This document shows, in pieces, positions 4,255-63,999 of a stretch of 64,000 bases of DNA (position 1 is its first letter; each line of letters opens with the position of its first letter). The position numbers were made by a program, and so were the translations under genes. This DNA is from Diplolepis rosae (Eukaryota; Arthropoda; Insecta; Hymenoptera; Diplolepididae). The stretch spans positions 1,426,001 to 1,490,000 of the forward strand of contig JAPYXD010000744.1 of assembly GCA_030998225.1 (NCBI GenBank), in the 5' to 3' direction. Below the pieces are notes generated by a model. It was not told the DNA's origin. It worked only from the letters and a program-made list of their open reading frames with translations, and searched no databases.

Positions 4255-6424
4255 GGTCACGTCAATTTGACGTGTCTTCTGCTCTGGCTAAACGTGTCAA
4301 ATTACAGAAATAAGCAGAATAAATACGTAATTCACAGTTAAGAGGATTTTTTAAACAATTTTCCGACAGTTCGCTGTCTGAATTATTCAAAAGTAAAAAA
4401 CCTGCTTTCTTATAAGTCAGATTTATATATATGAAATATGATCAACTTTGCCAACAGACATGAATAGGTTTGTAATTTTAAAGCATAGATTTCAAAAGAC
4501 ATATAGAGATCAGTGTGTCCAGATTTGAAACGGGAACGTTACCAGAGATGAGTTGGGAGATTGCTAAAGTAATGGAATAAGAGAATTTCACAAAAGTGGG
4601 CTGATAAACGCGCCCTCTGAACGCGTTGTGCAAAAGGTGTACTTTGCGCGTCGGTAAATAATGAAAGTTAGAAAATCCAGAAATGATTTACCATCAGAAT
4701 TTCTATGGAGGGGCAGCGGCGCGCGCTGCCCTTGTTTCTTCCTCGTCGCTCTTGCACGCGAGAACGACACGTCCCACTTCTCCTTATTCTCCTCGCTTCC
4801 TTCATGCAATGCTATTTTTAGATTTCACGCTTTCGGTTATCGAGTCAGAATTGAGAATTGTGTATTTCTGTCGAAACCGTGCAAAAGAGGCGCAAAGCAG
4901 ACGACAATTTCAAATTTACGAAATATGTTATTTAAGAGACAACACTTTTTTCCGATATTTTGGAAAAAATCTGCCTAAAATAAAAATCTGAAATATCGTG
5001 TAAAATTTTATAAGCATTTAAACACTTCAAAAATAAACTTTCAGTAAAATTTGATGCCAATAAATGTTCCAAATTTGAATAAATATATATTTTCCTATTC
5101 AAATTTCCATACTTCTTATCAATTTTGTGCATTTAAAAACTTTTTAGTTAGAGAGATATTTTCTATTAAGAAGAGATAAACATAAAATTCAAGTTTAAAA
5201 TTTACATTCTCAGTTTTATGTTAGCAATATTTTCATCTCACATTTTTGTAGCCTAAGCACAGACTTTTCATTAAAAAAATGAAATGGTCTATGGAAAGGA
5301 AAAATTTTCTAATATATGTGGATAAATTAAAAAGTTAAAATACGTGTTCATTAATATCTTCATATGAACATGTAAATAATTATCGATATTAAATTTTACA
5401 TAAAAATTTTTGTCCGAACTGTTCAAATCTTGTTACAATATGACAAGATCATATGGACGAGTTCAATTTTTTTAATGAAATGTTTTGTAATTTTTAATTT
5501 GTCTGTTCTTCTGAAATCGGAGGAAGATTTGAACAATAAACAACAAATTTTCCAATGGAATTCAATGTCAATAAATGCTTAAAGTTTTATATTAAAATTT
5601 TAATTACAAAATTTTGAAGCTTTGTAACTATAACATTTTTTGGAATTTACATCTTCTACATGACAATTTGTATATACATATATATATATAAACTACCATC
5701 GGAAATTACAGAGGTTGACCTGGAGTTTCAATTTTCGTTAAAGTGATTTATTTTATAGAAAGATATTACAAAAGAAATTTTAATTTAGATCTCTTTGAAG
5801 GAAATTAATAAGTATGTAAAAAAATTAAAATTTTAAAAGATTTTTTTAGTATGTCTTCATAGTGATTTGTTAACCTAATTAAAATATTTTTAGAAAGTCT
5901 TTTCTGGATTCTATATGCTGGGGTTGAACACGTTACAAAAAGTCGTGTAATTTTAAAAATGTGTATCCCCATACCAATGAAATCTTAAAGTGTGCTGTTC
6001 GATAAAATATTAGATATAATATATTTTACTTTTGAATAATCAAATCTTTTATTTATACTTATATATTGAAATTTTCATTTATAATATGTTATGTATTCTG
6101 AAAGTTTTTTCAAAATGTTTTATTCTAAAGGATTTATTTTCAATTTTACTTCATACCAAATTAAAGTTAGTGTACGATTTCCTGTGCTAATTTTGATATA
6201 ATTTATGAATTTTTTAAATATTTAAACCTTTTATACTCAAACATTCAGAATTATTTTGAATTCAAAATGTTTTAATAAATTGCATTGGCTTTAGGGTCCA
6301 TAAATGAAGAAGTTTATTATAAATTAAATCAAGGGTCATTACAATTTACTATTTTAATTGTTTTAATAAAACATTGAATAATTTAAAAACTTTAAACATA
6401 TTAATACGTTCATAGTTACATACT

Positions 6425-6530
6425 TAAGTTTAAAGAATTTGAAAATCTTTCTGTGGAAAAAAGACGTTTTCGAATGCACCGGGATTCGAGCCCGGGTATT
6501 TCGATTGCCGGTAGACTGTATGTACATTCG
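6425..6530 (-). repeat. tRNA-derived SINE-like fragment
   Basis: On the minus strand, GGGCTCGAATCCC resembles an RNA polymerase III B box (T-loop). It is followed by TTCGAAAACGTCTTTTTTCCACA. Nearly the same block occurs on the plus strand at 24890-24930. The shared B box plus shared downstream sequence suggest two copies of one tRNA-related SINE. No convincing A box was found. Confidence 0.4.
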
Positions 6531-26095: not shown

Positions 26096-28024
26096 TTAAT
26101 TTTTAGCTGTCAACAGTTTCTTGAATTTTTTGACTGACGATACATTGAATAAATTATTGAAAAACTGTTGTCCATTATTACTTAGATACTTTGTCAAGGC
26201 TTTAACGTCGGTTATTTTTTCATTGCTTATTCCAACCGAAACAGCCAATGGTCTATTCAACATATCATTGAAAGCAATCATTGAATCCAGAACATGGGTT
26301 TTCGGTTTTTCGTTATAGCCATAAAACAAATCTATTTGTCTATTTGGAAAATATTTTATTTTTACTGTGTCCCTGATACGTAAATTCGTTGGATTTTTAA
26401 TTTCATTCAACAAGGTTTCAAAATCTTTAATGGCATAATCAGTTTCTTTAATTATTTTGAATGGTGGATTTCTAGCCTTTTGTATAATTGTGTAATATTC
26501 TTTGTCGGTTTCTATAATTTCTAATCTTTTCTTTTTTTGTCCATACATTCCAAAGTTTCGGTCACATGAACAATAAGAATGCCCGCGTACAGGAAATAAA
26601 TGTTGGATTTCGACTTGCAATTTTTCAGACAACAGCGACAGAAAATTCATAACCAAATAATTTTTATTCTGACTTCCGCAACCATCAGAAAATAAATAGA
26701 TTTTGTTGAAATAGCCGATTTCAAATTCGCGTCAAATCGTATCATACAGTAGATTGCACACCGTATTTGCCCCTTTTTTGTATTTTCCTTCAAGAAAAAA
26801 ATACATGTAACTATTTTTGTTATTTCCGAAGGTATGAACATTGAAAACATGCAACCATATAAGTCTTCGATAAAATTGATCTGAAACTGGAATTTTTGGA
26901 AGTGGTAAATTCTGGCCAAAATCGAATTCCAAACATAAAACCTGCTTTTCATTAAGCATCAACTTTTTCAAAGATCTGTGTTCTTCAACAGTTTCTTTGT
27001 GTTTTATCAAATTCCCATTGCTTATGTCATTTTTATGTTCGAAACAAAAATTACAAACATCAGTACGTGGTTTTGAGAATGCAAAATTTAAGTTGTGATT
27101 GAAATATTTGCTATAAGTGGACTCGCTCAAGGGAAAATTCAAATTGCCTGTTTTCTCAGTATAATATTCGACAAACAAACTGTATAATTTTGTCAAAGTC
27201 AAATCAGAATTGTCAAAATATTTCAATGAGGAATCTGCACGCTTGTAATGTGACTCAGAATGAGGTATGGATGAGCAATGTTCTTGAATCAATTTTTTAA
27301 TTTCATCCGTCAATCGAACCGAACTCTTGCTGCTTTGTTTGCCTCGATTATCCCTTAAACACTCATTATTTTTAATCTTTTTTTGAGTTATTGCAAATCT
27401 GGATTTATCAATTTTCAGCAGAGAACATAAAAAGCCCCGACAAACGGACAAATTAATTGTTTTGTGGTGAAAAAAATACTCCCAACAAGTAACATCGTTT
27501 GTTTTTTCTTCGAGCGATTTAGGAGTCTTCATGATCATCATTCCCGTCAATATGCAATTTTTAGTTGCATATTCACCCGTTGATTTCCAAAATACGTCGA
27601 AAAACTCTTTTTGTTGCGATATTTCAATTTTTTCACAACACTTCTTTGGGCAGCAAGAATTTACGTTTGTGAACTCTTTCGCACAGACTATTTTTCCCGA
27701 ACGAGACACATATTCTCTCCCCTGAGGAACAAAAATTTTTAGTTGCAGCAAATTAGAAAAAAATATGATCTGTCATAATTTTGAGAAAAAAAACTACATT
27801 TAAAATAATAATAATAAATTTAACAATTAAAATGCTCTTCACAATAACATTTAAAAACTATAATAATCTTTACCAAACGTTAACAGCAACTTACAAAACT
27901 TACAAATTATTGAAGCACTGTAATAACTTACCTCATTTCTGGCAATTTTTCTTGCATTACGTTCCCAGTTACTCTCATTTCTATTTCTTTTTCTTGAAGG
28001 TTTCAAATTTTCCTTATCGGACAT
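26096..28024 (-). pseudogene. Transposase, two exons, one nonsense codon
   Basis: Exon 1 is 27932-28024 (31 codons; M-S-D-K-E-N start) with donor GAG|GTAAGT. Exon 2 begins at 27721 after TTGTTCCTCAG and ends at 26096. The spliced frame is 572 residues with one in-frame TGA at 26732-26734 (residue 361). Features in order: a basic N-terminus (RKRNRNESNWERNARKIARN), GREYVSRSGK, a cysteine cluster CCPKKCC (near residue 50), an HY-rich middle, PRTDVCNFC, FDFGQNLPLPKIP (first candidate catalytic D), and FSDGCGSQNKN (second candidate D) just after the stop. This order is shared by a group of insect transposase-like proteins I know only as uncharacterised. The nuclease role is inferred from the element's TIRs. 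The copy is nearly intact and could be a fresh pseudogene. Confidence 0.8.
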
Positions 28025-28598: not shown

Positions 28599-28778
28599 AA
28601 AAAACCCACGAAAATCCTATTTAGCCAAATAGTGGAAAATCCTCCAGCCGAGAAAACACAAAGTAATAAAATTGCCAAGTGACAAAAGAAAAATACAGTG
28701 CGGTGAAAAATTAAGTGAAAAACAAAAATAAAATAAAGGAATAGCAGACATCACGAGTAAGTAACGTAAAATAAGTCG

Positions 28779-30920
28779 ATGAGATTAAGGTCCGGAAAAG
28801 TAAAAAAGAATAGAAAAATGGCCAATAAAAATAAAATTATCGAAAATGAAAAAATAAAAGAAGTAGAATTAGAGATTAGAGAGAGACAGCATGCCAACAA
28901 AACAGGCACAATACCGAAAGCCACAATACGTAGCATAGAGACAATTTCAAAACCACGCGACAAAGACGGACGAAGCAAGGACATATTACAGAAACACAAC
29001 ATGGACACAGAAATAATAAATAGTACTTACAAAGGCATGCTATCTCCTAATACGGAAAATACGGTAGGTTATTGGCGAATATTAGAGGAAGAAGAAAATT
29101 TAGATTTAGATAAAATAAAAGGTCGGGAATTAGAATTAGAGTACTTAGAGAGAGAACGCGAAATAAGAAGAAACGAAATGAAAAAACTAGATAAGGAGAG
29201 GGTAGAGATCGAAAAAATAATTAGGGAAAAATTGGAAAAGGATAAATTAGAGCTAGAAATATACAAAAGAACGCAAAGGGATGAAAAGGATAAAACATTC
29301 GAAATAGACTCATTTATAGAAACGAATAAGGAATTTTGGAAAGAAGCAGAAATACTAATTGAAAACGAGGAACCAAAGAACAACAAATCAAAAATCCTAG
29401 AATTAACCCTAGAAATAAAATCTTTAAAGGAAAAAATGGAACAAATCCTAAATAATACGCAAAATAAAACTTTAGAAATACACAACGCACAGACCATAGT
29501 TAGCCCTACAGTAGAAGGCCAAATAAAAGTAAATAGAAATAGAATAACAAAAACGGACAAAGGGTCAGATAACAGAAGAGTAGAAGAAAACGAAGAAGAC
29601 CAAAGTACGTTTAAATTACCAACACCAGCTCCCCGGAAATTAATAAGAAATACGATAATAACCACCACGGAAAATAAACAAAACGAGACGCAAGCCGAAA
29701 GATACAACGACCAAAGTGGAGAAAATAATAATCTAAGCGATGAAGACGTACAGGACGACGAATTACAAACAATGCGAGCATCGCTTTTCCCATTCGGAAT
29801 GGTCCAAACACCTTTCCAAATTATGTCGAATTGGCCGATTAAATTCGGAAACAATACAAATGACAGCCCAACAATTTTCTTAAGTAATTTATTAAGGTTT
29901 AAAAGGGGATACAAAATCAACGAAGAGGATACTTTAGAAAATTTAGACGCCGTATTGATAGGAGAAGCTCAATGTTGGTACCAAGTAAATAAAAGAAATT
30001 GGCATAACTTGGAAGATTTCATACAAGAATTCAAACAGGTCTATTTGAATGAAAAGTACCTAGAAGTAATTCATAACAAAATAAGATATTGTAATCAAAA
30101 GAAAAATCAAGAAATTCACAGTTTCATAATAGAAATGAGACAGTTATTCGAGAAATTAGAACCACTTCCCAGCTTGGAATGGCAATTAAAAAAAGTTTAC
30201 GAGAATTTAAGACTCGAATATAAAATTTACATTACAAGAAATTCATTCAAAAATTTTACAGAATTAGAAATATTAGGACGCGAATGGGAAGCAGAAATGG
30301 CAAAATCAAGAATGAAAGGGCAAGAAATTAAAATATGGGAGAACAATAGGAATGACAGATTGTATATAAGAGAACAAGAGAGAAACCAAGAGCAACAAAA
30401 CAATCAAAGCCATGAAAATAATTATGAAAGACAAAATAATAGTAAATACGAATTATACAACATACAAAGCAGACAACAATTCCAGCCAAGATATGCCAAC
30501 AACGGGACCAAATATTTCTATAACAACCAAAGAAGCCAAAACACATACCCACAAAACCGAGGTATTAACAAATTTCAAAATAGAGTAGGAGTTAACTATA
30601 ACCAAAATTACAGATACCCAAATCCAAACAATTGGTTTAGGAAAGAGGAAAATCAAATAGCCAGATACAGCAACAGACAACAGCTTGAAGGGAACCCCAA
30701 ATTACCAGAACTAACATACAACCTAAGAGACGAAAACCAAAGAAAGGAACTAGAGGACATGGAACAGAACAAACAGGAAACAAATGACAACAATAAAGGA
30801 AGATATCAAGAAAATAATAAATGGGAGTTGAACCCAAAGGCAAGAGAATTCACCCAGTACAGGGAACAAAAAAGGAGAAAACAGCAGCAATACAGCACAA
30901 CAGCTAATAAAATGTTATAA
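28779..30920 (+). CDS. gag: Gag polyprotein of retrotransposon 2
   Basis: 713 residues. The N-terminal third is highly charged (E/K/R) and predicted coiled coil (about residues 100-240). A capsid-like region lies near 350-520 (GEAQCWYQVNKRNWHNLEDF and following helices), resembling retrotransposon Gag. The C-terminal third is rich in N, Q and Y. The frame ends at TAA 30918-30920. A CX2CX4HX4C zinc knuckle, normally the end of Gag, is encoded across that stop but in the +1 frame (30913-30954). This suggests a one-base indel between about 30832 and 30912, or an unusual frameshift. Gag would form the particle that packages the element's RNA. Confidence 0.85.
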   Translation: MRLRSGKVKKNRKMANKNKIIENEKIKEVELEIRERQHANKTGTIPKATIRSIETISKPRDKDGRSKDILQKHNMDTEIINSTYKGMLSPNTENTVGYWRILEEEENLDLDKIKGRELELEYLEREREIRRNEMKKLDKERVEIEKIIREKLEKDKLELEIYKRTQRDEKDKTFEIDSFIETNKEFWKEAEILIENEEPKNNKSKILELTLEIKSLKEKMEQILNNTQNKTLEIHNAQTIVSPTVEGQIKVNRNRITKTDKGSDNRRVEENEEDQSTFKLPTPAPRKLIRNTIITTTENKQNETQAERYNDQSGENNNLSDEDVQDDELQTMRASLFPFGMVQTPFQIMSNWPIKFGNNTNDSPTIFLSNLLRFKRGYKINEEDTLENLDAVLIGEAQCWYQVNKRNWHNLEDFIQEFKQVYLNEKYLEVIHNKIRYCNQKKNQEIHSFIIEMRQLFEKLEPLPSLEWQLKKVYENLRLEYKIYITRNSFKNFTELEILGREWEAEMAKSRMKGQEIKIWENNRNDRLYIREQERNQEQQNNQSHENNYERQNNSKYELYNIQSRQQFQPRYANNGTKYFYNNQRSQNTYPQNRGINKFQNRVGVNYNQNYRYPNPNNWFRKEENQIARYSNRQQLEGNPKLPELTYNLRDENQRKELEDMEQNKQETNDNNKGRYQENNKWELNPKAREFTQYREQKRRKQQQYSTTANKML

Positions 30921-30990
30921 TTGCGGAGGCAAAGGACATATGCAACGCGACTGTTGGTACAGTCAGGGAAACGCAAACGGAGGCTACTAG
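30913..30990 (+). other. Nucleocapsid zinc knuckle in the +1 frame, with slippery heptamer
   Basis: Reading from 30913 gives CYNCGGKGHMQRDC, a CCHC knuckle, followed by a TAG at 30988-30990. Within this frame G GGA AAC (30966-30972) is a canonical X XXY YYZ slippery heptamer. A -1 shift there enters exactly the pol frame. This frame is open upstream to 30832. Confidence 0.75.
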
Positions 30991-33900
30991 AGGCGAATAG
31001 TAGCCCGCAGAAATACCAAATCAGATCGCCAAAGAAAACCGAAACAAACAACACACCAGACGAAACAAGAATGCACATAATAATAAAATGGGAAAAAACA
31101 AAATATAAAGTATTAGTGGACACAGGTGCAACCCACTCATATATCAGCAAAGAATTCTTTAAACAGATAGAAAAATCGGACTACGAAATCAAAAAACCAA
31201 GCAACGACAAATTAATAGTTGCAAATGGCCAGAAATTAGAGATAACGGGACAAGTACTGATTCCGATTGAGGTAGGCCACATTAAAAAGTATTTATTATT
31301 TAGATTAGTACCCGAACTGCAATCCACAGGAATCTTAGGAACAGATATGATAGAAAGACTGGGATTAAAGTTAGATTTCGAAAAGAGAAACTGGTGGCTA
31401 CCAGAAAAACCACAAATAAAATACAAAATAGAAACAAACCCCAAGGAAAACGAAATAAGAGAAAACGAAAAGGAAAGAATAGGAGAACAGAGAAAAACAA
31501 GCAACTTACAATGGAGAGAAATACCCACTAGTACCCCAACCAACCATACCCGGCCTGTAGTCGTCCAGACAAGGGACACAAAAGGGTCCAAAATACCAGT
31601 AAGACAGAGAAGTCTAATCCCACAAGAAAATAAAAAACAGAGGCAAGAAGTCACTAGTTTTAGTCCCTTAGAAGAAGAAAACGTAATACAAACAGCTCTC
31701 AAAGCAAAAATCAAGAGTGAAGATAAACAAAGAGTAAAGGAAATAGAGAAAGAACCCGAAAAGGAAATAAAAAATAAATTAAAACTGAAAAGAGAACGAA
31801 ACGAAGAAAGCAAGAATGAAGAAGTATCGAGGGAAAGAAAAGAAACAGAAAACGAAAAATGCGAGGGAATAATTGAACTAAATGAAAACCAAGGACAACA
31901 ATTAAGAAAATTAATCGAAAGAAAGGTTAACAAAACAGGAATAAAACTAGAACCTACACACATGACAGAACACAAAATAAACGTACAGGGCCACGAACCA
32001 ATAAAACAAAGATATTACCATGTCTCACCCAAAGTAAGAGAGTACATGTACGAAGAAATAGATAAAATGTTGGAAGAAGACATAATTGAACCCTCAGACA
32101 GCGATTGGTCAAACCCGGTAGTTATGATAAAGAAACCCAACGGAAAATATAGATTCTGCTTGGATTTCAGAAAAGTCAATAAAATAACAAAAAAAGACCT
32201 GTACCCAATACCAATCATGGCAGAAATTTTAGATGCATTGAGGTCAGCAAGATACATATCAAAAATTGATCTCCGCTCAGCATACCACCAAATACCACTA
32301 GAAGAAGAATCAAGAAAAATAACAGCATTCACAGTACCAGGAAAAGGAATGTACCAATTTAAAAGAATGCCATTCGGTTTAACAAACGCTCCAGCTACGT
32401 TCCAGCGTTTAATGGATAAAATAATAACACCAGACTTAAAACCTAACGTATTCTGCTACCTCGATGACATAATTATAGTAACAGAAAACTTCGAAGAACA
32501 TTTGAAAAATTTAGAAATAGTTCTAGAAAAAATAAACCAAGCAAGATTAACAATAAATCTGGAAAAGTGCGAATTTGGATGCTCGGAAGTGAAATACTTA
32601 GGATTTGTAGTAAACGAAAAAGGACTATTAATGGACGAAGACAAAATAAAACCTATACTAGAATTCCCAACACCAAAAAATGTGAAACAACTGCAAAGAA
32701 TTATAGGAATGACATCATGGTACAGAAGATTCATACCAAAATTTTCGGAAATAATGGAACCTTTATACACACTATTAAAGAAAGGAATAGAGTGGAAATG
32801 GGACATAGAACAAGAACAGGCATTAGAAAAAATAAAAAAATTACTAACAACAAAACCAATACTGGCATGCCCAAACTTTCATCATCCATTTCAACTTGAA
32901 ACCGATGCGAGCGATACGGGATTAGGAGCCGTCTTAACCCAAAATATAAATAACGAAAACTACGTAATAGCGTTCGCAAGCAGAAGCCTCAACGAAGCAG
33001 AAAAAAAATATTCAACATCAGAAAAGGAATGCTTAGCAGTGGTATGGGCAATACGGAAATTCAGACCTTACCTAGAAGGATATACCTTCAAAGTACTAAC
33101 AGACCATATAGCTTTAAAATGGCTGCATAATTTAAAAAACCCGACGGGACGACTAGCAAGATGGGCACTGGAACTACTCGAATACGACTACGAGATAGTA
33201 TACAGAAAAGGCTCACTAAATTACGCACCAGACGCATTATCAAGAACACGCGAAAAGTTGGACTCGGTAGCAAGTACGTTATCAATGGCAAAAGAAAAAG
33301 AAAAAGAGAAAAGCAAAGAAACCAACGACGAATGGTATAGTCACAAACTAAAACAAGTAAAGGAAAAACCAACAGAAAACCCAAACTGGCGAATAAGAGA
33401 CGACCAACTTTATTTCTTCAGACCAGATCCGTTAAAATCAAGCTTGAACCTGGATAATAGTCCATGGAAATTAACAATACCGAAGGAATTAAGAGAACAA
33501 GTGTTAAAAGAGAACCACGATAATAAACAAGCAGGACATTTGGGCATGGAGAAAACATATGCAAGAATCGCAGAGAACTATTTCTGGCCAGGTATGTATT
33601 CAGAAACATTAAAATACGTAAAAGAATGCGACACATGCCAAAGAATCAAACCAAAAGTAAACAATCAAGTAGGACTACTGGGAAAAAGAATAATCGAAGA
33701 ACCATGGACAGTAGTAGCAGCAGACATAATGGGCCCACTGCCGAGGTCGAAAGCAAAAAACCAATATATACTTGTTTGCGTGGACATGTTCAACAAATGG
33801 GTGGAAATAATTCCAGTAAAAAACAAGGTAGCAACAACAATAGAAAAGGAATTCCACAGAAGAATCATATCGAAATGGGGAACACCAAGAATATTATTCA

Positions 33901-34562
33901 CAGACAACGGCAAAGAATTCGTGAACAAAATCATGGTAAAGTTAACGCAAAACTTCGGAATACGACATTCGAAAACACCACGATACCACCCACAATCAAA
34001 CCCAACAGAAAGATGTAACAGATCAATAAAAACAGCGATCAAAGCATACCTAGAAAAAGACCATAGAGAATGGGATGAAAATTTAGAAGACCTACAATTC
34101 GCGTTAAACACTAGTAAACATGCGTCAACAGGGTTCACACCAGCATTCTTAAACCTTGGAAGGGAATTAGAACCAATTCAAACCTTAAACAAAGACTTAA
34201 TAAACATAGAAGGAATAGAAGCACAAGAAGTAGGGGAATGGGTAGAAAGACTAAACAGGTTGAAAATAATAAAAGACGAGGTACAGAAAAATTTAGATTT
34301 AGCAAATGAAAGGCAGGCAAAATATTATAACTTAAGACGTAGACCAATTAGCTACGAGATAGGGGAAAAGGTACTAAGAAGCGAAAAAACGTTGTCAAAT
34401 AAAGCAGATAATATAGCAAAAAAATTAAATAAAAATTTTGAGGGCCCATTTTTCATAAAAACAAAAATCTCACCGACAATTTACGAAATAAAAAACAAGA
34501 AAGGTAAGTCACTTGGCAATTGGAACATAAAAGACATTAAAAAATATGTAGAAAAAAATTAA
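30973..34562 (+). CDS. pol: Pol polyprotein of retrotransposon 2 (PR-RT-RH-IN)
   Basis: The open frame runs from 30921, but translation probably enters by -1 frameshift at 30966-30972. Protease: VDTGATHSY (D near 67, counted from 30921). A long charged linker follows. Reverse transcriptase: SKIDLRSAYHQI and YLDD near 513-516. RNase H: ETDASDTGLGAV near 660. Integrase: zinc region with GHLGMEKTY and CDTCQRIKP (about 865-910). Catalytic residues are D in ADIMGPLP, D in FTDNGKEF and E in NPTERCNR, spaced D-35-E. A C-terminal GPFF-type module closes the protein. No stop or missing catalytic residue is seen, so the enzyme may be active. All proteins act in cytoplasmic particles and then in the nucleus. 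Confidence 0.95.
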
Positions 34563-34641
34563 GTAAACAAATAGAAACACACATAAAATAGTAAATTGAC
34601 AAACCGATACAGAGACACAACGAAAATAATTATGTTAACAG

Positions 34642-35454
34642 ATGATGGAGCAGAAACTAAACCTAAAGTGCGAGCGATGTTATCGAGAGATAACAGTGGC
34701 AGAAGCTTTAAAACACAAATGCCCGAGACTTCTTGACCTAATCCAGACCCCGCTTGTCCCAGAATCACCAGAAGAAGAAAAACAGAGAAAAGAAGAAATA
34801 AGAAGAAGAGAGGAAGCAAGAAGAGAAATAGAATTGAAGAATGAGTTTAAGAAGATACATAGAGAGGAAAAACTGAAACAGGAAGGAAAAGAGCCCGAAG
34901 GGAAAAAAGAAAAGAAAATGCAAGAAGAAATACTAAAGATAATCAAAGAAACCAGAGAAAAAATGGGAATAAAAAGCTATGAAGAGGAAAAAAAAGAATG
35001 GGAAGAAAAGAAGAAACAAGAAGAAGACTTTATAAAATGGAGGAAAGAAAAACTGCAAAGAATATATACAAACGAACTAAAAGAAGAAGACAGGAAAAGA
35101 GAACAAGAAAAATGCGATAAAGAATGGAAGAAACAGAGAGAAAGAGCTTAGACGATGGGAAGAAAATCAAGAGCAGGAAAGGAGGGCCTGGAAAGAAGAA
35201 AGAGAAAAAAGAGAAAGAAGAAAAGATAATGTTCCAAAAAATAAGAGAGGAAAAAAGAAGAAAGGGAAAGAAGAACATGGAACGAAGGAATAGAAAGAAA
35301 AAAGAAAGAACTGAGGGAGAAGAAAGAACGCGAAGAAAAAGAAAAAGAACTAAGAAAAACACTTGAAGAATTAGAAAAAGACACAGACAGTGACAGCGAC
35401 ACAGAATCTGATGATTCAACGAAAACGATTATTTACATAGTAAATAAGAACTAA
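34642..35454 (+). pseudogene. 3' ORF A of retrotransposon 2: zinc-binding head, coiled coil, acidic tail
   Basis: It starts MMEQKLNLKCERC. The head has C-x2-C-x11-H-x-C, a possible zinc-binding site. A very long E/K/R-rich coiled coil follows. The first frame stops at 35149-35151, but the same composition continues in the next frame to a stop near 35280, then in the original frame to TAA at 35452-35454, ending in an acidic D/S/T-rich tail. Two indels therefore broke a protein of about 270 residues. No signal peptide or membrane segment is present, so it is not an envelope. Function unknown; nucleic-acid binding is a guess. Confidence 0.6.
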
Positions 35455-57095: not shown

Positions 57096-57643
57096 TATGA
57101 TCCGAAGAAGGGTGCTTTGGATGTCGAATATTCGACATTCGACTATGCGGCCGATCGAATCGAAAAAATCCGTTCCGAAGAAGGGTGCTTCGAATGTCGA
57201 ATATTCGACATTCGACTATGCGGCCGATCGAATCGAAAAACTCCGATCCGACAAATAAGGCGAATCGAATCGAATTTGCGACATTCGATCCGACAGAATG
57301 CACACGTCTAGTTGCAACCTCTGAATTTCAGCCCAGCATGCCTCATTTAAAAAATATTTCAAGTAAATAAGTTGCGCTTTCTCAAACTTTATGCTAAACT
57401 ATCAATGTAAATAAAATCTCAATCTATTACTTTTCTAAATATTGTTAGGTCAGAAACGTAACATTTCTTTTCTTAAAAGATTCCTCGTTTTATGTAAGGA
57501 TCGAAAAGGATCCTCTCTAAGGGATGAGGAGAAGTCAGTAATTGAGAATGGTTATTGATAAAAAGTATGTTTACTGACAATCAAATTGAGAAACGAATAA
57601 GCATCGTGGAATTGGAAATCGAATTGAAATTTAGATGTACCTT

Positions 57644-58692
57644 TGTAATTACCCTGAGTGAAATTTGTCTGATGATTTATTGAGTCCAGTGGAGCGAAGG
57701 TGGCCAGTTGAGTCTTCGTTGAGATCCTTGAGATAGTACTTGTTTGATGTGAAATTCGTTGTTGAGACGGTTGGTCTAGTCGATTCTTGATCCAAGTTTA
57801 GAGAGAATTTTGGAAGGTGATTCCCCTTCACTTTCTAATGTCGTTGAACTCAGCGTCAAGTAAGAATTCGTCTGAGTAGCGGTAAAATCCGATGAGGCTG
57901 GACTGAACTCGTAGCGTAGATATAATGAAACTGGACTAGACTGAGCTGAATTCACCGTGTAGAGATGATGGTACTGGACTAGATTGAACTGAACTCGCCG
58001 TGTAGATATGGTGGTACTGGACTGACTTCTCTTGGGATTTTTGCCTTTTATAGAACTTTTGCAAGGTTGCTTATGGTGGGAGCAAAACCAAGGTGTACCA
58101 CCTTTGGTATTAAGATCGGATGAGTTGCCCTCTCTGATGACTCGTGCTCCAATGAAATTCATTACCTTGCACTAATGTCGCAATCTATTTTATCTGTTAT
58201 TCGATTCTAACGAAAAGGTCAACTACTGTGGAAGTAAAAACAAGGTGTATCATCTTTTCAATATTTGGTATTTTAAGATCGGATGAGTTGCCTTCTCTGA
58301 TCACTTATGCTTCGATGAAATTTATTACCTGGCATTAGTGTCATAGTCAAATATATCAAGTCTATTTTATCTGTTATTCGATTCTAACGAAAAGGTCAAC
58401 TACTGTGGAAGTAAAAACAAGGTGTACGATCTTTTCCATATTTTGGTGTTTAAAGTCGAATGAGTTGCCTTTATCGATGAGTCAAGTTCCGATGAAATTT
58501 ATTACTTGGCGTTAATGTCACAGCCAAATATATCTATTTAGATTTGCCTTTCGATTTTAACGATCTTCCTATTTCTTGTTAGATCTTGCTGTTGAGTCAA
58601 TATAATCAAGGACGTGGTAATGTTGCCTTGATCTCTTAATTGGTTCCGTAATTTGTTTATTACTCTAGGTGGTAGAGTCGCGGGAATTGACA
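57644..58692 (-). repeat. 3' LTR of element 3
   Basis: On the minus strand it starts TGTCAATTCCCGCG next to a polypurine tract and probably ends GGTAATTACA (57644); an alternative end at 57443 cannot be excluded. It holds three tandem repeats of about 180 bp in U3 (about 58080-58570), a TATA box (58044-58052), three to four repeats of about 45 bp containing CTGGACTGAACTCG-type words downstream of it (57890-58030) and AATAAA (57676-57681). This order, enhancer-like repeats, TATA, poly(A), is that of a promoter-bearing LTR. Confidence 0.7.
58044..58052 (-). promoter_or_regulatory. TATA box of LTR 3
   Basis: TATAAAAGG on the minus strand, in the middle of the LTR between two sets of tandem repeats. 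Confidence 0.65.
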
Positions 58693-58706
58693 CCTCCCCC
58701 CTTAAT
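58693..58706 (-). promoter_or_regulatory. Polypurine tract of element 3
   Basis: AAGGGGGGAGG on the minus strand, directly upstream of TGTCAATT. Confidence 0.75.
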
Positions 58707-58815: not shown

Positions 58816-60218
58816 TTACAACATAAAAATCTCGTAGAAAATTCTATAACAAGTTTTATATAAGTGAATAGTAATAACAGAGGATATAATACTGAAAATA
58901 TAAAAAATAGGTTTTTTCTCCGTTTCTAACTGTTTCGAGGTAAAAATTTCGTTATTTAAGAATGACAGTGGAATGTCTTCCTTTTCTCCAATTTCTAAAA
59001 GGGTTTTTATTTTGTTTTCAATACCTTTAAGGTGAATTTTTAGGAATGTAGCAGCTGAGAAAATAGAAACGTTTGTATTCACTGAGGTTTTTGATTTATC
59101 TAGAAATATGAAATTTTTCTTTGTGGTTGGGGTAGGTTTATGGATTTGATTTCGCACTCTGGCTTTGTTTGAAGGATTCCTATATTTTGAATGTCGATTG
59201 TGATCCGCAATTTTTTAGGGCAGTTCGAATTGATGGTTTGAGGTGTTGGAGTTGCATAAATCCAACCGTAGTGCTTAGTTAAAGCTGTCCACGGTGGATA
59301 GTTATTAATGCTGAGATGAATTTTGCATTTGTAAGGGTTTGATTTGGTGAAAATTTCCGTTTCGCAAGTAGGGGTTGTCGAGATGTTGAAAAAGGGATTT
59401 GTATTTTGGCATGTTGGACCCATATTGGTTTGGAAACAAGATTCCGTAAGGTCATTAGGTGACAAGAAGTAAGTTTGATTGTTTTTAGATAGTGCCATAT
59501 AAGCAGTTTGTGTTTGAATATAAACGGCTAATGTTTCGTTATTTGCAAATTTTATAAATGTAGGAATGGAATGTGGTTTGAATAAGGTAAATTCTTCTTC
59601 TGAGGGAGTTGGAATACTCAGACTGAAAACTAATGTGCTTTCATAATTAAAATATTGGATTTTTGTGAATGGAAGAATTTCAGAAATATGAGTAGAAAAT
59701 GGAAGTAGAATATTTTTATGTTTAGTGTCAAACAGAGGATGCAGGAGAGAGTAAGGGAAAAGAAAGGGATCCCATTGACCGTTAATAGCATGGGTTAATG
59801 CGTTGGCTAGGTGGTCTAATAGGAAAAGATAAGTGTCTAGTTTTTCGAGTAATGAGTTTAACCAATTTGATGCGTCATGTTGATAGATTGAAATGTCCAG
59901 TTTATCTTTACTATTGAACCAGTCTATGAATGGTACTATTTCTATAAAAATTTTGGAAATACTTTCAATTTTTGGGGTATTTATACAATAATCGAGAAGT
60001 TAGTTGTATGATTTTTTTACCTGATGATGGAAATTAAATATTTGGTATGTATCTAAATAGGATACAAAATGGTATTCTTTATAGAAAACTCGAAAGTTTG
60101 TTATAGGTTCGAAGAATATACCTGGAGAGTTTGAAGATTTTGTATGGATGTAAATGGATGTAGTCGATTTTAGTAGGGAATTTAAGAAAAGGATCGTAGC
60201 TAAAAGTTGAGGATTCAT
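58816..60218 (-). pseudogene. env: Envelope-like ORF 2 (F/errantivirus type), broken
   Basis: Starts with a signal peptide (MNPQLLATILFLNSLLK). A TAA at 60000-60002 interrupts the frame, which then stays open to 59100. The end continues in another frame (58816-59157) with a hydrophobic membrane segment (IFYIFSIISSVITI) close to the C-terminus. The ectodomain has several cysteines near its end (CQNTNPF, PTCETEIF, NCPKKL, PECEIKS). This cysteine spacing and the overall plan resemble the envelope of insect errantiviruses, related to baculovirus F; I do not see the usual furin/fusion-peptide motif. Upstream, TTTATTCTTTTTCCCAG (AG at 60235-60236) is a strong acceptor 17 bases before the ATG. One stop and one frameshift make this copy unable to give a full protein. 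Confidence 0.7.
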
Positions 60219-60234
60219 TGTGCTTCTCGATGGT

Positions 60235-60252
60235 CTGGGAAAAAGAATAAAT
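60235..60252 (-). promoter_or_regulatory. 3' splice site before envelope-like ORF 2
   Basis: TTCTTTTTCCCAG|AC on the minus strand, with a long pyrimidine tract, shortly before the start codon. It implies a spliced subgenomic RNA. Confidence 0.65.
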
Positions 60253-60301
60253 AATTTTGAGATTAAAAATGGTTTCTGTATTAAATGTCCAATAATTTAT
60301 T

Positions 60302-61667
60302 CTAGAGGTTAGTTATTCTAGTGGTCTTTGAAGAAAATGGTTTAAATAGTTGAGCGAAGGTAGTAGGGATTCGAAATGGTAAGGTAGGTGGAAATTGAGT
60401 TGCCTTGTCCTTTTGCCTTTTTATTATTTTTTTAGGGCAGTATGCTATATTGTGCGCTTGTGTATTGCAATATTTGCAAGAATTTTCTCAGGCGACTAAC
60501 TTTGGTCGTGGATCTGTTTGTATTTCTTGGTCTTTTGTTTTTGCTTTACCCTTATATGTTTCTATATTATTGTCGTCGCATAGGTCATAATTTCTCATTA
60601 ACAATTGTAGGAGATTCAAAGCTGCTTTATTTTCTGCTAATTCTTTCATACTACCGGTTTGAATTATTAAGTGATCCTTAAGGTTTGCGTGTGCAATGAA
60701 GAGAGAACTTGATTGCGAATGAAGATCTGGATATATTATTATTTGTGGTTCTGGTAATCCATATTGAATTGCGAAATTTTTTAGTATTTCTTTGTTTAGG
60801 GTTCCCATTGAATTGCGTTTCGACCTTTGTTTTACGTATCTTGGTTTTCTGGTTGGTTGTATCTTGACTATTGAAATTATCACATAAAATTTAAAATAAG
60901 GGTTTAACGGTCTGTATCCGCATTTAATGCATTTTTTGAGTTTTGTTTGATTTTTGAAATGTATCAAAAAATTCTTTTTGCTTTTTGATTATATTTGAAG
61001 ACATGCAAGACGGGTTGTTGTGCTTGTGAATAGGAATTTTTGTTAATTTTTTGGAACCAGTGGTTTGGAATTTATTTTTCATTATTAGGGTATTTCTATG
61101 AGAATTTGGAAAACTCGTTGAAGGTTCTTGAGATGAAATGTGAGTAGTATTTTGTAAGCAGTCGGATATAGATTCTTCGTAATTTTTATTCAGGTGTTCG
61201 GTACTTATTAGCATATGTATTACTTTTAGTGCAGCGAGATTCTTTGCTTCTTTACTGGTATTAGAAATTCCTGTCTGTTTTATTCTTTCGACTGAGCAAA
61301 TTGTTAACCATATGTTGATATTTTGTGAATTTTTAAGTTTTACAGCTGTATAATGTCGTTGACAAAGATTTTGTTGAGCACACAAATTTTGTAATCTTTC
61401 GTCTGATTTTTTATTTAATGAGTTTATGAAATTCAAATTATTTTTATTAATGTTTAATTCGAATAATACATTTTTTGCTGCAGTTTGTTTGGTTGTTTCT
61501 TCATCTTCTGCATTACTGATTATTATATAATTTTTATATCTTAGTTTTACATTAAATTGATTTTGATTTTTCCTATTTTGTCTATTTAGTGTTTTATAAT
61601 GTGGAGGATGATCACCCTTTTGTTTAATCATTTGATCTAGTAACGTTATGTAGTTATTGTGCGACAT
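60302..61667 (-). pseudogene. Triple dsRNA-binding-domain protein with CCHC zinc knuckle, frameshifted
   Basis: The first frame (61667-60924, 247 codons) has dsRBD 1 (about residues 6-75: LLDQMIKQKG, HPPHY, TTKQTAAKNVLFEL) and dsRBD 2 (about 88-155: RHYTAVKL, TGISNTSKEAKNLAALKVI). A second frame (from 60967) carries dsRBD 3 (KNFAIQYGLPEP, TGSMKELAENKAALNLLQLL). It reads through a TGA at 60488-60490 into CKYCNTQAHNIAYC, a CX2CX4HX4C knuckle (60437-60478), and stops at 60302. dsRBDs bind A-form RNA duplexes; three in one protein is the plan of Loquacious/TRBP-type Dicer partners. In a retroelement the likely role is shielding dsRNA from RNA interference, an inference. The ATG lies just past the envelope 1 stop. 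One frameshift and one stop damage this copy. Confidence 0.75.
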
Positions 61668-61677
61668 GATATGTGAG

Positions 61678-62711
61678 TTATATGTCTATGGAATAATCTC
61701 TGTTATTAGATACTTCAAATAGTTGAGAAAGAGGATAAAGAGTGGTTTTTGTATCGTTCTGTCTATTACCTGTATTTATAGGTTGTACTGGTTTTATTAG
61801 AATGACGCTTTCCTGTGTATCTGAGTGTGGCGCCGATGCGTCTGGACCTTCCTTATCTTTTTTGGTAGGCCTTCTCGGTAGTTGTCTCGTTCCTAGGTGT
61901 AAAATTAAATTAGTGACTGAGTCCCAGAATGCGCCTAGTAAGTGAAAAGACCAGCCGAATAAATTATGTAATGCATATCCGTGTATAATAGTGTCTGCTA
62001 TTATTTTAATTCCTCTAATTATAATAATAAAACCTATTAATCCTGCGCTAGTTGTACCAAAATTTACAAACAGAGTCCAGAATCGACCCCACGCGGATTC
62101 AGCGATTTGATCTATTATCTCTTCATTAAATAAGTTCGTTAGGGATATTCCTTGATTTACTGTAGGTCTACCTGATATTTCTCTTGCTAATGAATTTAAT
62201 ATCATGGTTTTTTCTGCAGGGAACATAATGTGATCACGTAATCTATCGAGATCTGATTGTGAGTAAATACCACTCGTTGCTAAGGACGAAGGATTTTGGT
62301 ATCTCCAAGTTACTTTTGTAAGTGGTTTTATTATTGTTGGAGCTATTGATTCTACAGGATTAGCTATCAATTTGTACCATGTTTCACCGAAAAGGTACAT
62401 TGAAGGAATGAGAGTTGCAATTTGTTTGTGTGCCGGATTTTGTTAAGATATGAGTTCGTGGAGAGAGAAAGTAAGACTGGTTTCCTCTAGTTACTGGTAA
62501 TTGAAGATAACATTCTTCAGTTTTCCTATATTTTACTTCAACAGGTATACATTGTATGATGTGTACTACTTCTCCTGCCGTCACTGACATGAGATAATGT
62601 CGTTATATTCGCATTGTTTGAGCCGCAATCAAATCCAATGATGGCGTAAGTTGTTTTCATATAGAGCAATCTTAGAATCAGCAGTACCAAGAGGAAGCCT
62701 CGCAATCCCAT
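61678..62711 (-). pseudogene. env: Envelope-like glycoprotein 1, internally deleted
   Basis: ATG at 62709-62711 opens a clear signal peptide (MGLRGFLLVLLILRLLYMK) followed by FDCGSNNANITT with an N-glycosylation site. The frame is then lost. A second frame (62590-62384) carries VTAGEVVHIIQC and CYLQLPV. A third (62400-61678, 240 codons) carries the rest, with a hydrophobic membrane segment (TSAGLIGFIIIIRGIKII) and a second hydrophobic stretch (LFGWSFHLLGAFW). The layout is that of a type I viral-type glycoprotein whose central ectodomain has been lost. Similar glycoproteins occur in other insect LTR elements; I do not name the viral family with confidence. A strong acceptor CCTCCTTTTTCCAG sits two bases before the ATG. 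Confidence 0.7.
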
Positions 62712-62823: not shown

Positions 62824-63105
62824 TTATTTCATTGAATTTAGAATTTCGGCTAAAGATTTGTGTCCTGACGATCGTAGACTGAGAATTAAATTGTTATAGG
62901 CTTCTGGACCCCGAGTTTTAATTGTCGTAAAAATTTCTCGGATTATAATTGGGTTAGTGAAATCTTTGCTCCACTCAGGTATGTTACAATCGTCGTGATT
63001 GTAGATTCCGTTTTGAATTAGATAAGGCCAAAGTGCTGTCATATCGACTAGATTTACAAATGCATCAATTAGGGCGTCAATATTTTTCCGATGAGTATAC
63101 TCCAT
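62824..63105 (-). CDS. CARD-only protein encoded by a retrovirus-like element
   Basis: 93 residues, intact. The whole length fits one caspase-recruitment domain (six-helix death fold). HRKNIDALIDAFVNL fits helix 1; LWPYLIQNGIYN helices 2-3; IIIREIFTTIKTRGPEAY helices 4-5, and LILSLRSSGHKSLAEIL helices 5-6. The HR..I, GI, TRGP-AY and LA-IL positions match CARDs of insect initiator caspases (Dronc type). CARDs pair with CARDs of adaptors such as the Apaf-1 homologue, so a CARD without a protease could block apoptosome assembly; this role is inferred. The start has a good context (CAAAATGG) six bases after a TTTCAG acceptor. It sits between integrase and envelope 1. Unlike its neighbours it has no frame damage. 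Confidence 0.75.
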   Translation of the reverse strand: MEYTHRKNIDALIDAFVNLVDMTALWPYLIQNGIYNHDDCNIPEWSKDFTNPIIIREIFTTIKTRGPEAYNNLILSLRSSGHKSLAEILNSMK

Positions 63106-63111
63106 TTTGAT

Positions 63112-63122
63112 CTGAAATTCAT
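63112..63122 (-). promoter_or_regulatory. 3' splice site before the CARD ORF
   Basis: ATGAATTTCAG|ATCAAAATGG on the minus strand. AG at 63112-63113; A+T-rich rather than C-rich tract upstream. Confidence 0.5.
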
Positions 63123-63186
63123 ATGTTTCTATATTATAATTTTATTATATTTTTATTATTATTTGTTTCTTCATTTTTTTAAATTA

Positions 63187-63999
63187 TTATGCAATATTCA
63201 TTTGTGATCTTTTTAGTCGGTTGACGTGAACTCCTGTCGGTTTTCCCTTTATGTTGATTTTTACATTTCCTTTTCCTAGTACGTCTAAAACTTCGTGAGG
63301 TCCTGTGTATTGATTATCCAGCTTTTTAATTTTTCCTCCTTTTAATAAAAATACATTGTCCCAAATTTTTATTTCCAAGGGATTTATTTTTCTATCGTGG
63401 TACATTTTTGATTTTTCTTTTGCCTTTATGAGGTTTTCTCTTGCTTGTGTTCGCATTTCATGCAGTTGTGTGACAAAGTTAACCAAATAATCATCATAAG
63501 TTTGCAATTTTTCATTTTGTGGTAGAGGTTCACTAGAGGGTTCACGGGCTAATTTGCCAAAAACTAATTCATAACGCGTACATTTTGTGGCTTCGTGTAC
63601 ACTTGTGTTATATGAAAACATTGCTAATTCTAGCCAATCATCCCATTCTGAGTTTTTTGCTACAAATTGTTTGAGATATTCACCTAAGACATGATGTGAT
63701 CCTTCAAGTGATCCATTGGATTGAGGGTGAAAAGCTGTGGTACGAAATTGTTTGATTCTAAAGCGTTTTGCTAATCTTTTTAATAAATTGTTTAAAAAAT
63801 CTCTGCCTTGATTCGTTAGTACTCCTTTTGGCGATCCAAATATGCAAATAAATGTTTTCACGAATGCGTCTGCTATTGTACCAGCTTGATGATTAGGAAG
63901 CGGTATTGCTAGAGAGTATTTTGTAAAATTACCTTGTATAGTAAGAATATACAGATTTCCAGACTTTGTTTCTGGTAGTGGACCAACAATATCCATTGA
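63187..63999 (-). pseudogene. pol: Integrase, C-terminal part of pol of element 3 (runs off the window)
   Basis: About 270 residues are visible, starting inside the catalytic core at MDIVGPLP (first catalytic D). The second catalytic position reads VLTNQGRDF: the expected D is N (AAT for GAT), which would abolish activity if the sequence is right. The third is E in HPQSNGSLEGS. A GPHEV module (YTGPHEVLDVLG) closes the protein, which ends at TAA near 63187. The type is Ty3/gypsy integrase. The methionine at 63996 is internal; the zinc domain and RT lie beyond the window. Confidence 0.9.

Follow-up and report, generated by a model that had tools for sequence, protein, structure and literature searches.

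A Dronc-type CARD-only gene carried by an envelope-bearing Ty3/Gypsy element in Diplolepis rosae

A 64,000-nt stretch of the Diplolepis rosae genome (GenBank assembly GCA_030998225.1, contig JAPYXD010000744.1, positions 1,426,001 to 1,490,000; "the window" below) includes, at 62824..63105 on the minus strand, a 93-amino-acid open reading frame (ORF) that encodes a caspase recruitment domain (CARD) and ends there, stop codon included. It belongs, as an accessory gene, to a complex endogenous retrovirus of the Ty3/Gypsy (errantivirus-like) kind that bears envelopes. Read along the minus strand, the window copy of the element has an integrase, the CARD, a chuvirus-type fusion glycoprotein, two ORFs with double-stranded RNA (dsRNA)-binding domains, a baculovirus-F-type envelope, a polypurine tract, and a long terminal repeat (LTR). 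We consider it likely, if well short of certain, that the element acquired the CARD from a spliced mRNA of the type of the host initiator caspase Dronc, and that the product is a putative decoy blocking the Dronc/Dark apoptosome.

An original prediction, made from the letters of the window alone, had placed an undamaged CARD of insect initiator-caspase type at this position without naming a strand. The ORF is complete on the minus strand from its ATG (63105-63103) to its stop, and the plus-strand reading of 62824..63105 contains nine stops. "Undamaged" applies to the CARD but not to the element copy around it, in which the glycoprotein is frame-broken and shortened and the frame of the F envelope is interrupted by a stop codon. 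The 93 residues are a genuine CARD with a predicted six-helix death fold. They score 26.8 bits (E=5.4e-6) against Pfam CARD (PF00619), above the gathering cut-off of 23.9; this score, together with 150 homologous places scored in the genome, rules out a chance ORF. The AlphaFold2 model, built on a 12-sequence alignment, has six helices (mean pLDDT 84.4, pTM 0.77), with residues 41-50 its least confident part (pLDDT ~67). A Foldseek comparison of the model with the PDB puts Apaf-1 and procaspase-9 CARDs in the top ranks (TM 0.81-0.84 and probability 1.00 for the first seven; best E-value 4.0e-3, none at or below 1e-3). The stop codon directly ends the CARD, and no catalytic p20/p10 domain follows.

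By fold, the CARDs of caspase-9 and of Apaf-1 both match the window CARD. By sequence it is closer to caspase CARDs than to those of the adaptors (Apaf-1/Dark), as judged with a profile that includes Dronc/caspase rows and is biased to the caspase side. The single sequence finds solved structures weakly (CED-3, E=0.15; Dronc, E=0.43); with the profile of element and hymenopteran Dronc-type CARDs the E-values are 1.2e-5 for Dronc, 2.6e-5 for CED-3, and 2e-4 for caspase-9 (all matches to these three at E<=8e-4), and no Apaf-1 chain is among its 15 matches at E<=1. The assignment to the insect initiator-caspase type is borne out by the match to Dronc and by the relatives described below.

Within the 757.7-Mb genome, 150 of 1141 first-look CARD candidates were scored, as were 142 of 8388 and 142 of 8003 candidates in integrase searches with a family-2 and the window query, respectively, so that all copy counts are lower bounds. 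The 150 scored CARD matches fall into 23 at 81-100% identity (family 1, which includes the window) and 127 at 59-63% (family 2); a stop is listed in seven of them. Integrase lies just upstream of the CARD in 28 of 30 excised loci, and the glycoprotein piece at most 1.5 kb downstream in 23. So that copies would not be picked by their CARD, a family-2 integrase was also used as query: its top 50 matches all have a CARD downstream. In 33 of these it lies 236-261 nt downstream by coordinates (checked by script); in the other 17, for which 700 nt downstream were read, a family-2 CARD was found every time, in 11 cases as one full-length match and in six interrupted or cut. The genome thus has at least 167 CARD places (150 scored plus 17 from the integrase search). 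The two families, ~62% identical in the CARD, share its position and the candidate splice acceptor before its ATG. The predicted placement between integrase and envelope, and its recurrence in other copies, are therefore upheld for these two families: the CARD is a gene of the element.

An insertion nested in a single copy is excluded, since the arrangement recurs. The probability that the ORF is an artefact of assembly or annotation, or else a host gene merely beside an element, is negligible. No evidence supporting an artefact was found; a host gene beside an element is excluded by the integrase and glycoprotein counts just given, and three CARD proteins of short public contigs (P0002, P0003, P0004) are identical letter for letter to copies in this genome. 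Given this identity, the public contigs probably represent genomic sequence from the species itself.

The CARD had also been credited with its own 3' splice site. A plausible one precedes the ATG (..AATTTCAG/ATCAAAATGG, with the slash at the cut, 63111/63112); with its leader (AATTTCAG/ATCAAA) it occupies 63106..63130 on the minus strand. Among rows that begin with ATG, an AG 2-6 nt ahead of it is kept in 20 of 23 from family 1 and 25 of 27 from family 2, some places being represented by two rows. Because this candidate acceptor precedes the ATG, a spliced CARD message is suggested; the acceptor is plausible and mostly kept, and the splicing itself is what we infer from it.

Capture from a host initiator caspase, likewise part of the original prediction, is supported by relatives and by an intron. 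The gall-wasp relative P0008, lengthened by padding so that long proteins could be reached, served as query in a search that gave 102 candidates; three among them have both CARD and caspase domains (P0012, Odynerus spinipes, Orussus abietinus), and their CARDs are 46-48% identical to the window's. The CARD of the genome's own Dronc is 47% identical. The catalytic exons of this gene are in locus L041 and its two CARD exons ~12 kb upstream, in L072; the first 10-kb stretches of the four caspase loci had yielded no CARD exon (best E 0.35), and the exons were later located upstream of one of them. An intron follows residue 46 of the Dronc CARD, and the reading frame carries on across the exon ends into the catalytic part (by eye). 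A reading of this locus as a host gene made CARD-only by a stop in exon 2 was dropped: donor GA/GTAGGT and acceptor TTATAG/TGAAGG join in phase (by eye), and the gene is read as Dronc. The Dronc CARD intron is present in none of 55 element loci (48 distinct places). Its absence points to an RNA intermediate, and the CARD probably comes from a spliced Dronc-type mRNA. A search for the Dark CARD in the same genome gave one NB-ARC match only, with no CARD beside it by a Dronc-type profile.

In a tree of 41 rows and 93 columns, the element rows form one group (99/96) that includes P0005 and P0006, placed with the element CARDs by sequence alone; P0008 and P0011 come next (89/84). In a tree of 31 rows with more relatives, the deep branching that sets caspase CARDs apart from all others is weak (55/91). 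The donor may instead have been a Dronc-related host gene that encodes a CARD only, such as Belonocnema kinseyi LOC117174601 or Leptopilina boulardi LOC127278982, which would leave the decoy-like logic unchanged; this is conceivable, but we think it rather unlikely. P0008 and P0011 (100 and 126 amino acids, without a caspase domain) are the nearest neighbors of the element rows in the 41-row tree, identity to the window CARD is 55% for P0008 as against 47% for the genome's own Dronc, an intron-like insert interrupts P0011 where Dronc has its intron, and P0033 (Leptopilina) is a 101-amino-acid CARD protein in public annotation. However, the P0008/P0011 branch is unstarred, the alignments have just 93-95 columns, the 31-row tree resolves the caspase split no better than stated above, and the 100-amino-acid public models may be truncated models of Dronc. 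Nor was a host CARD-only gene found in the D. rosae genome itself, where the 150 scored matches to P0008 look like element copies (context not checked one by one). A spliced Dronc-type mRNA remains the preferred source.

As a separate observation, P0008, P0011, and P0033, from Belonocnema and Leptopilina among others, are proteins of ~100 amino acids with a Dronc-like CARD only, and are possible host CARD-only genes. Belonocnema LOC117169146 (P0066/P0067, two listed isoforms) has a CARD of similar type, and on this similarity the element-like type may extend beyond the present genome. Against Pfam CARD, P0033 scores above the cut-off (25.1 bits), P0005 and P0066 below it (13.3 and 13.5). In IMG/VR, neither the single CARD nor an alignment of CARDs found a relative.

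Intact, ATG-started frames of 93 amino acids are present at 37 of 55 loci (31 unique), and these were used to compare the rates of non-synonymous and synonymous substitution (dN and dS; pN and pS for the corresponding proportions). The dN/dS ratio is 0.30 within family 2 and 0.27 between its two subgroups; between the families pN is 0.253 and pS 0.738. Purifying selection acts on the CARD both from one family to the other and inside family 2; dN/dS across copies was among the checks that the original prediction had proposed. Between the window copy and family 2, pN/pS is 0.300 for the CARD (7 loci), 0.133 for integrase (7 loci), and 0.197 for the glycoprotein piece (6 loci), with amino acid identities of 62, 86, and 87%, respectively. 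Although constrained, the CARD evolves faster than integrase and the glycoprotein piece, as a host-facing protein might be expected to.

These figures bear on whether the CARD could be a functionless passenger, a host exon caught by chance and amplified by hitch-hiking. Short ORFs do persist by chance in young copies, and the window copy has LTRs 97.8% alike with its other genes broken; a related family does without the CARD, and pN/pS internal to family 1 is 0.60. Set against this, two families ~38% apart in the CARD protein both hold the full-length frame (at the 37 intact loci, with stops in only 7 of 150 matches), four comparisons give a pN/pS of 0.30-0.34 (inside family 2, between the subgroups of that family, from one family to the other, and for the window copy against seven loci), and the start codon and candidate acceptor are preserved in most rows. 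We judge a passenger to be very improbable.

Apoptosis and RNA interference both serve insects as antiviral defenses, and large DNA viruses are known to respond with anti-apoptotic genes. As a decoy, the CARD would be made from a spliced subgenomic RNA by way of the acceptor just ahead of its ATG. The free domain would then bind the CARD of Dark/Apaf-1, or Dronc's own, as a partner without a protease; apoptosome-driven caspase activation would be blocked, and the producer or newly infected cell would survive. The neighboring dsRNA-binding ORFs could blunt RNA interference in parallel. In flies, Dark recruits Dronc by a CARD-CARD contact, which is proposed to be blocked when the CARD of Dronc is mono-ubiquitylated (PMC5313150). 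A free Dronc-type CARD should compete for this contact.

The CARD might also redirect rather than block, by oligomerizing Dronc/Dark for non-lethal signaling, or might act in the particle (Gag/core assembly). CARDs assemble into filaments and disks, and filament CARDs are among the Foldseek matches. Dronc, moreover, has non-apoptotic, partly non-catalytic roles (passages in PMC5313150). However, the CARD sits amid apparent anti-host accessory ORFs and outpaces integrase in change, and its CARD-less relatives are numerous; redirection or a structural role seems improbable, if less so than a passenger.

Several observations weigh against the decoy reading. Two family-2 copies score only 17.5 and 19.5 bits with Pfam CARD, under the cut-off. 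Constraint within family 1 is weak (dN/dS 0.59), and between families dS is saturated in 78 of 210 pairs, so that the ratio is rough. Because the CARD has diverged more quickly than integrase and the glycoprotein, the surface that meets its partner may no longer be the same. With the window integrase as query, 25 of the first 30 matches are without a CARD and five have one of family 1, in a comparison against only the 23 family-1 CARD rows. Twelve CARD-less copies (loci L093-L105; ranks 4-13 plus two lower, not a random draw), with integrases 89-95% identical to the window's, have neither CARD (0/12) nor glycoprotein (0/12) within 1 kb downstream. Because the elements nearest in integrase are mostly without the gene, the element can multiply without it. 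The role as decoy is putative, then, the observed selection being compatible with some protein function.

One of the CARD-less copies (C366:2154360-2159666) was followed 3.5 kb further and reaches an LTR of the same kind, with pieces 76-87% identical. Up to this LTR it has no envelope, dsRNA-binding, or glycoprotein match (the CARD was sought in the first kb only); it is the one CARD-less copy in which dsRNA-binding ORFs and F were looked for. Outside the LTR, its common stretch with the part of the window element after integrase is only ~210 nt, just before the LTR. In this sample, the CARD accompanies envelope-bearing forms. The expectation that other copies would have the same ORF thus holds in two families and fails in the family with the closest integrase (0 of 12 sampled). 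Either loss of the CARD or a transfer of the 3' module from one backbone to another would account for the CARD-less family. A wider proposal, which we advance tentatively and at slightly less than an even chance, is a complex lineage of insect retroviruses that has one module of anti-host genes (a CARD decoy from Dronc mRNA, dsRNA-binding suppressors of RNA interference, and two envelopes). A shared Gypsy backbone would gain and lose this module by exchange, the survival gene going with infectious forms that bear envelopes and being missing from purely intracellular ones.

The remaining parts of the window copy are all on the minus strand. The C-terminal part of pol, with integrase, occupies 63187..63999 and continues past the window edge; its rve match is exactly at the cut-off (32.6 bits), and Integrase_H2C2 is found upstream in another copy (L043). 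The start of the chuvirus-type glycoprotein (62384..62711) is signal-peptide-like and frame-broken in a three-frame reading by eye, and has a candidate acceptor of its own (TTTTTCCAG/ACATGG); the 72-amino-acid piece at 62602-62384 matches other element copies. Its C-terminal part (61678..62442) matches Monjiviricetes_fusion (PF24664) at E=8.6e-68 over profile positions 429-648. Two dsRNA-binding ORFs follow, at 60924..61667 (dsrm in two stretches, 28.7 bits, cut-off 23) and 60488..60988 (dsrm, 23.5 bits, cut-off 23), the second overlapping the first in a different frame. The baculovirus-F/errantivirus-type envelope is at 58816..60296 with an in-frame TAA at 60000-60002; Baculo_F matches 59999-59103 (E=1.3e-17), and the last ORF (59214-58816), with no Pfam match over the scanned 59214-58819, was assigned to it by eye. 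A polypurine tract (AAGGGGGGAGG, 58693..58703, from the sequence) adjoins the 3' LTR (57443..58692 with ends by eye; blastn match to the 5' LTR over 57443-58674). The 5' LTR lies beyond the window (C416:1492687-1493918), is 97.8% identical to the 3' LTR over 1232 nt (blastn), and adjoins a primer-binding-site-like sequence, which we take to correspond to the 3' end of tRNA-Gly. Reverse transcriptase and gag were not detected upstream in this copy, where no reverse transcriptase was found in the ~2.7 kb from integrase at the window edge to the 5' LTR.

The full gene set was seen in pieces of several copies, not assembled into one. Reverse transcriptase, RNase H, and integrase are in a single 1384-amino-acid frame in L074 (order RVT_1, RT_RNaseH, H2C2, rve), and L075 has a gag-type zinc knuckle (zf-CCHC). 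L045 has glycoprotein profile positions 25-649 across three ORFs, as well as dsRNA-binding ORFs, F, and two Cys-rich ORFs. Across these copies the element has the zinc knuckle, the domain order, LTRs, and the primer-site-like sequence, which together we take as Gypsy (Metaviridae) markers. Whole-Pfam scans of pol pieces gave Gypsy-type domains, and neither Peptidase_A17 nor DUF5641, which we take as marking BEL/Pao. An errantivirus-like organization is seen in the window and in L045, where Baculo_F follows pol and has an in-frame stop in both. One element therefore carries two unrelated envelope-type glycoproteins, of chuvirus type (window 61678-62711; L045:105-2055) and of baculovirus-F type (window 58816-60296; L045:3413-5437).

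The dsRNA-binding ORFs after the glycoprotein (window 60488-61667, minus strand; L045:2018-3425) are candidate suppressors of RNA interference, judging by their domains; one in L045 weakly matches Loquacious, TRBP, and R2D2 (best E 0.017). Between families, the dsRNA-binding ORF is 34% identical at one compared locus (L029). The two short Cys-rich ORFs after F in this family-2 copy (L045:5613-6020 and 6088-6528) each have an AG just before the ATG, and a Pfam scan found no family above cut-off in them. In L074, also of family 2, the pol frame opens ~60 nt past the primer site (L074:1552-1629), and gag is seemingly missing.

CARD-only viral proteins are known from DNA viruses, and so, separately, are chuvirus- and baculovirus-derived envelopes in LTR elements. 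A close parallel in form is given by the CARD-only proteins of ranaviruses and iridoviruses (GIV-CARD; lymphocystis and cod iridovirus CARDs), which are virus-borne single CARDs of ~90 amino acids. GIV-CARD of grouper iridovirus (91 amino acids) inhibits apoptosis when expressed, and lowers caspase-8/-9 activity (passages in PMC4457926). In the Foldseek viral library two iridovirus CARDs rank 1-2 and equine herpesvirus E10 3-4, with weak E-values (0.12 and up). Close kinship to the iridovirus CARDs was dropped, identity being 10-17% in the two best structural alignments; their carriers are large DNA viruses of fish and amphibians, whereas the window CARD is in an insect LTR element and has Dronc-type caspases as its relatives at 46-48%. 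The E10 proteins of equine herpesviruses 2 and 5 are also viral CARD proteins, but are longer (311 and 511 amino acids), are Bcl10-related, and belong to herpesviruses. Human ICEBERG, INCA, and COP are likewise CARD-only, non-enzymatic decoys (passages in PMC4457926), but are host genes that target caspase-1, without a mobile-element carrier.

Among retroelements, insect errantiviruses likewise have LTRs, pol with reverse transcriptase, RNase H, and integrase, and an F-type envelope (described in PMC12992720); the present element adds the CARD, the chuvirus-type glycoprotein, and the dsRNA-binding ORFs, and one family-2 copy has two Cys-rich ORFs besides. The mosquito element Anakin also has a captured chuvirus glycoprotein (passages in PMC7642597), but is BEL/Pao rather than Gypsy. 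Hymenopteran Gypsy fragments have been reported beside chuvirus-type glycoproteins, two cases being within complete transposon boundaries, with no clear evidence of capture by Gypsy (PMC10084718); the present element looks like such a capture. Word searches of the main texts of PMC7642597, PMC10084718, and PMC12992720 found no mention of CARD, and neither "apopto" in the last nor "caspase" in the first; in word searches of open-access literature, no retroelement with a CARD of caspase origin came to light.

If the decoy reading is correct, a retroelement took an initiator-caspase recruitment domain, kept it under selection, and spread it to well over 100 places, which would put the insect apoptosome among the defenses that endogenous retroviruses must beat. 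One genome also holds a natural comparison, of related elements with and without the CARD together with an intron-bearing host gene of the donor type; when an element acquires, retains, or sheds such a gene, and for what reason, becomes directly testable.

Elsewhere in the window, a 73-bp tandem duplication (95%) at 57101-57246, just outside the 3' LTR, contains short palindrome-like units (ATTCGACATTCGA). Another element is apparent at 28770-35151, with a charged ORF of 716 amino acids, a pol-like ORF of 1213, and then a charged ORF of 170 (ORF list, by eye), and two adjoining same-strand ORFs of 346 and 211 amino acids lie at 26096-27772 on the minus strand.
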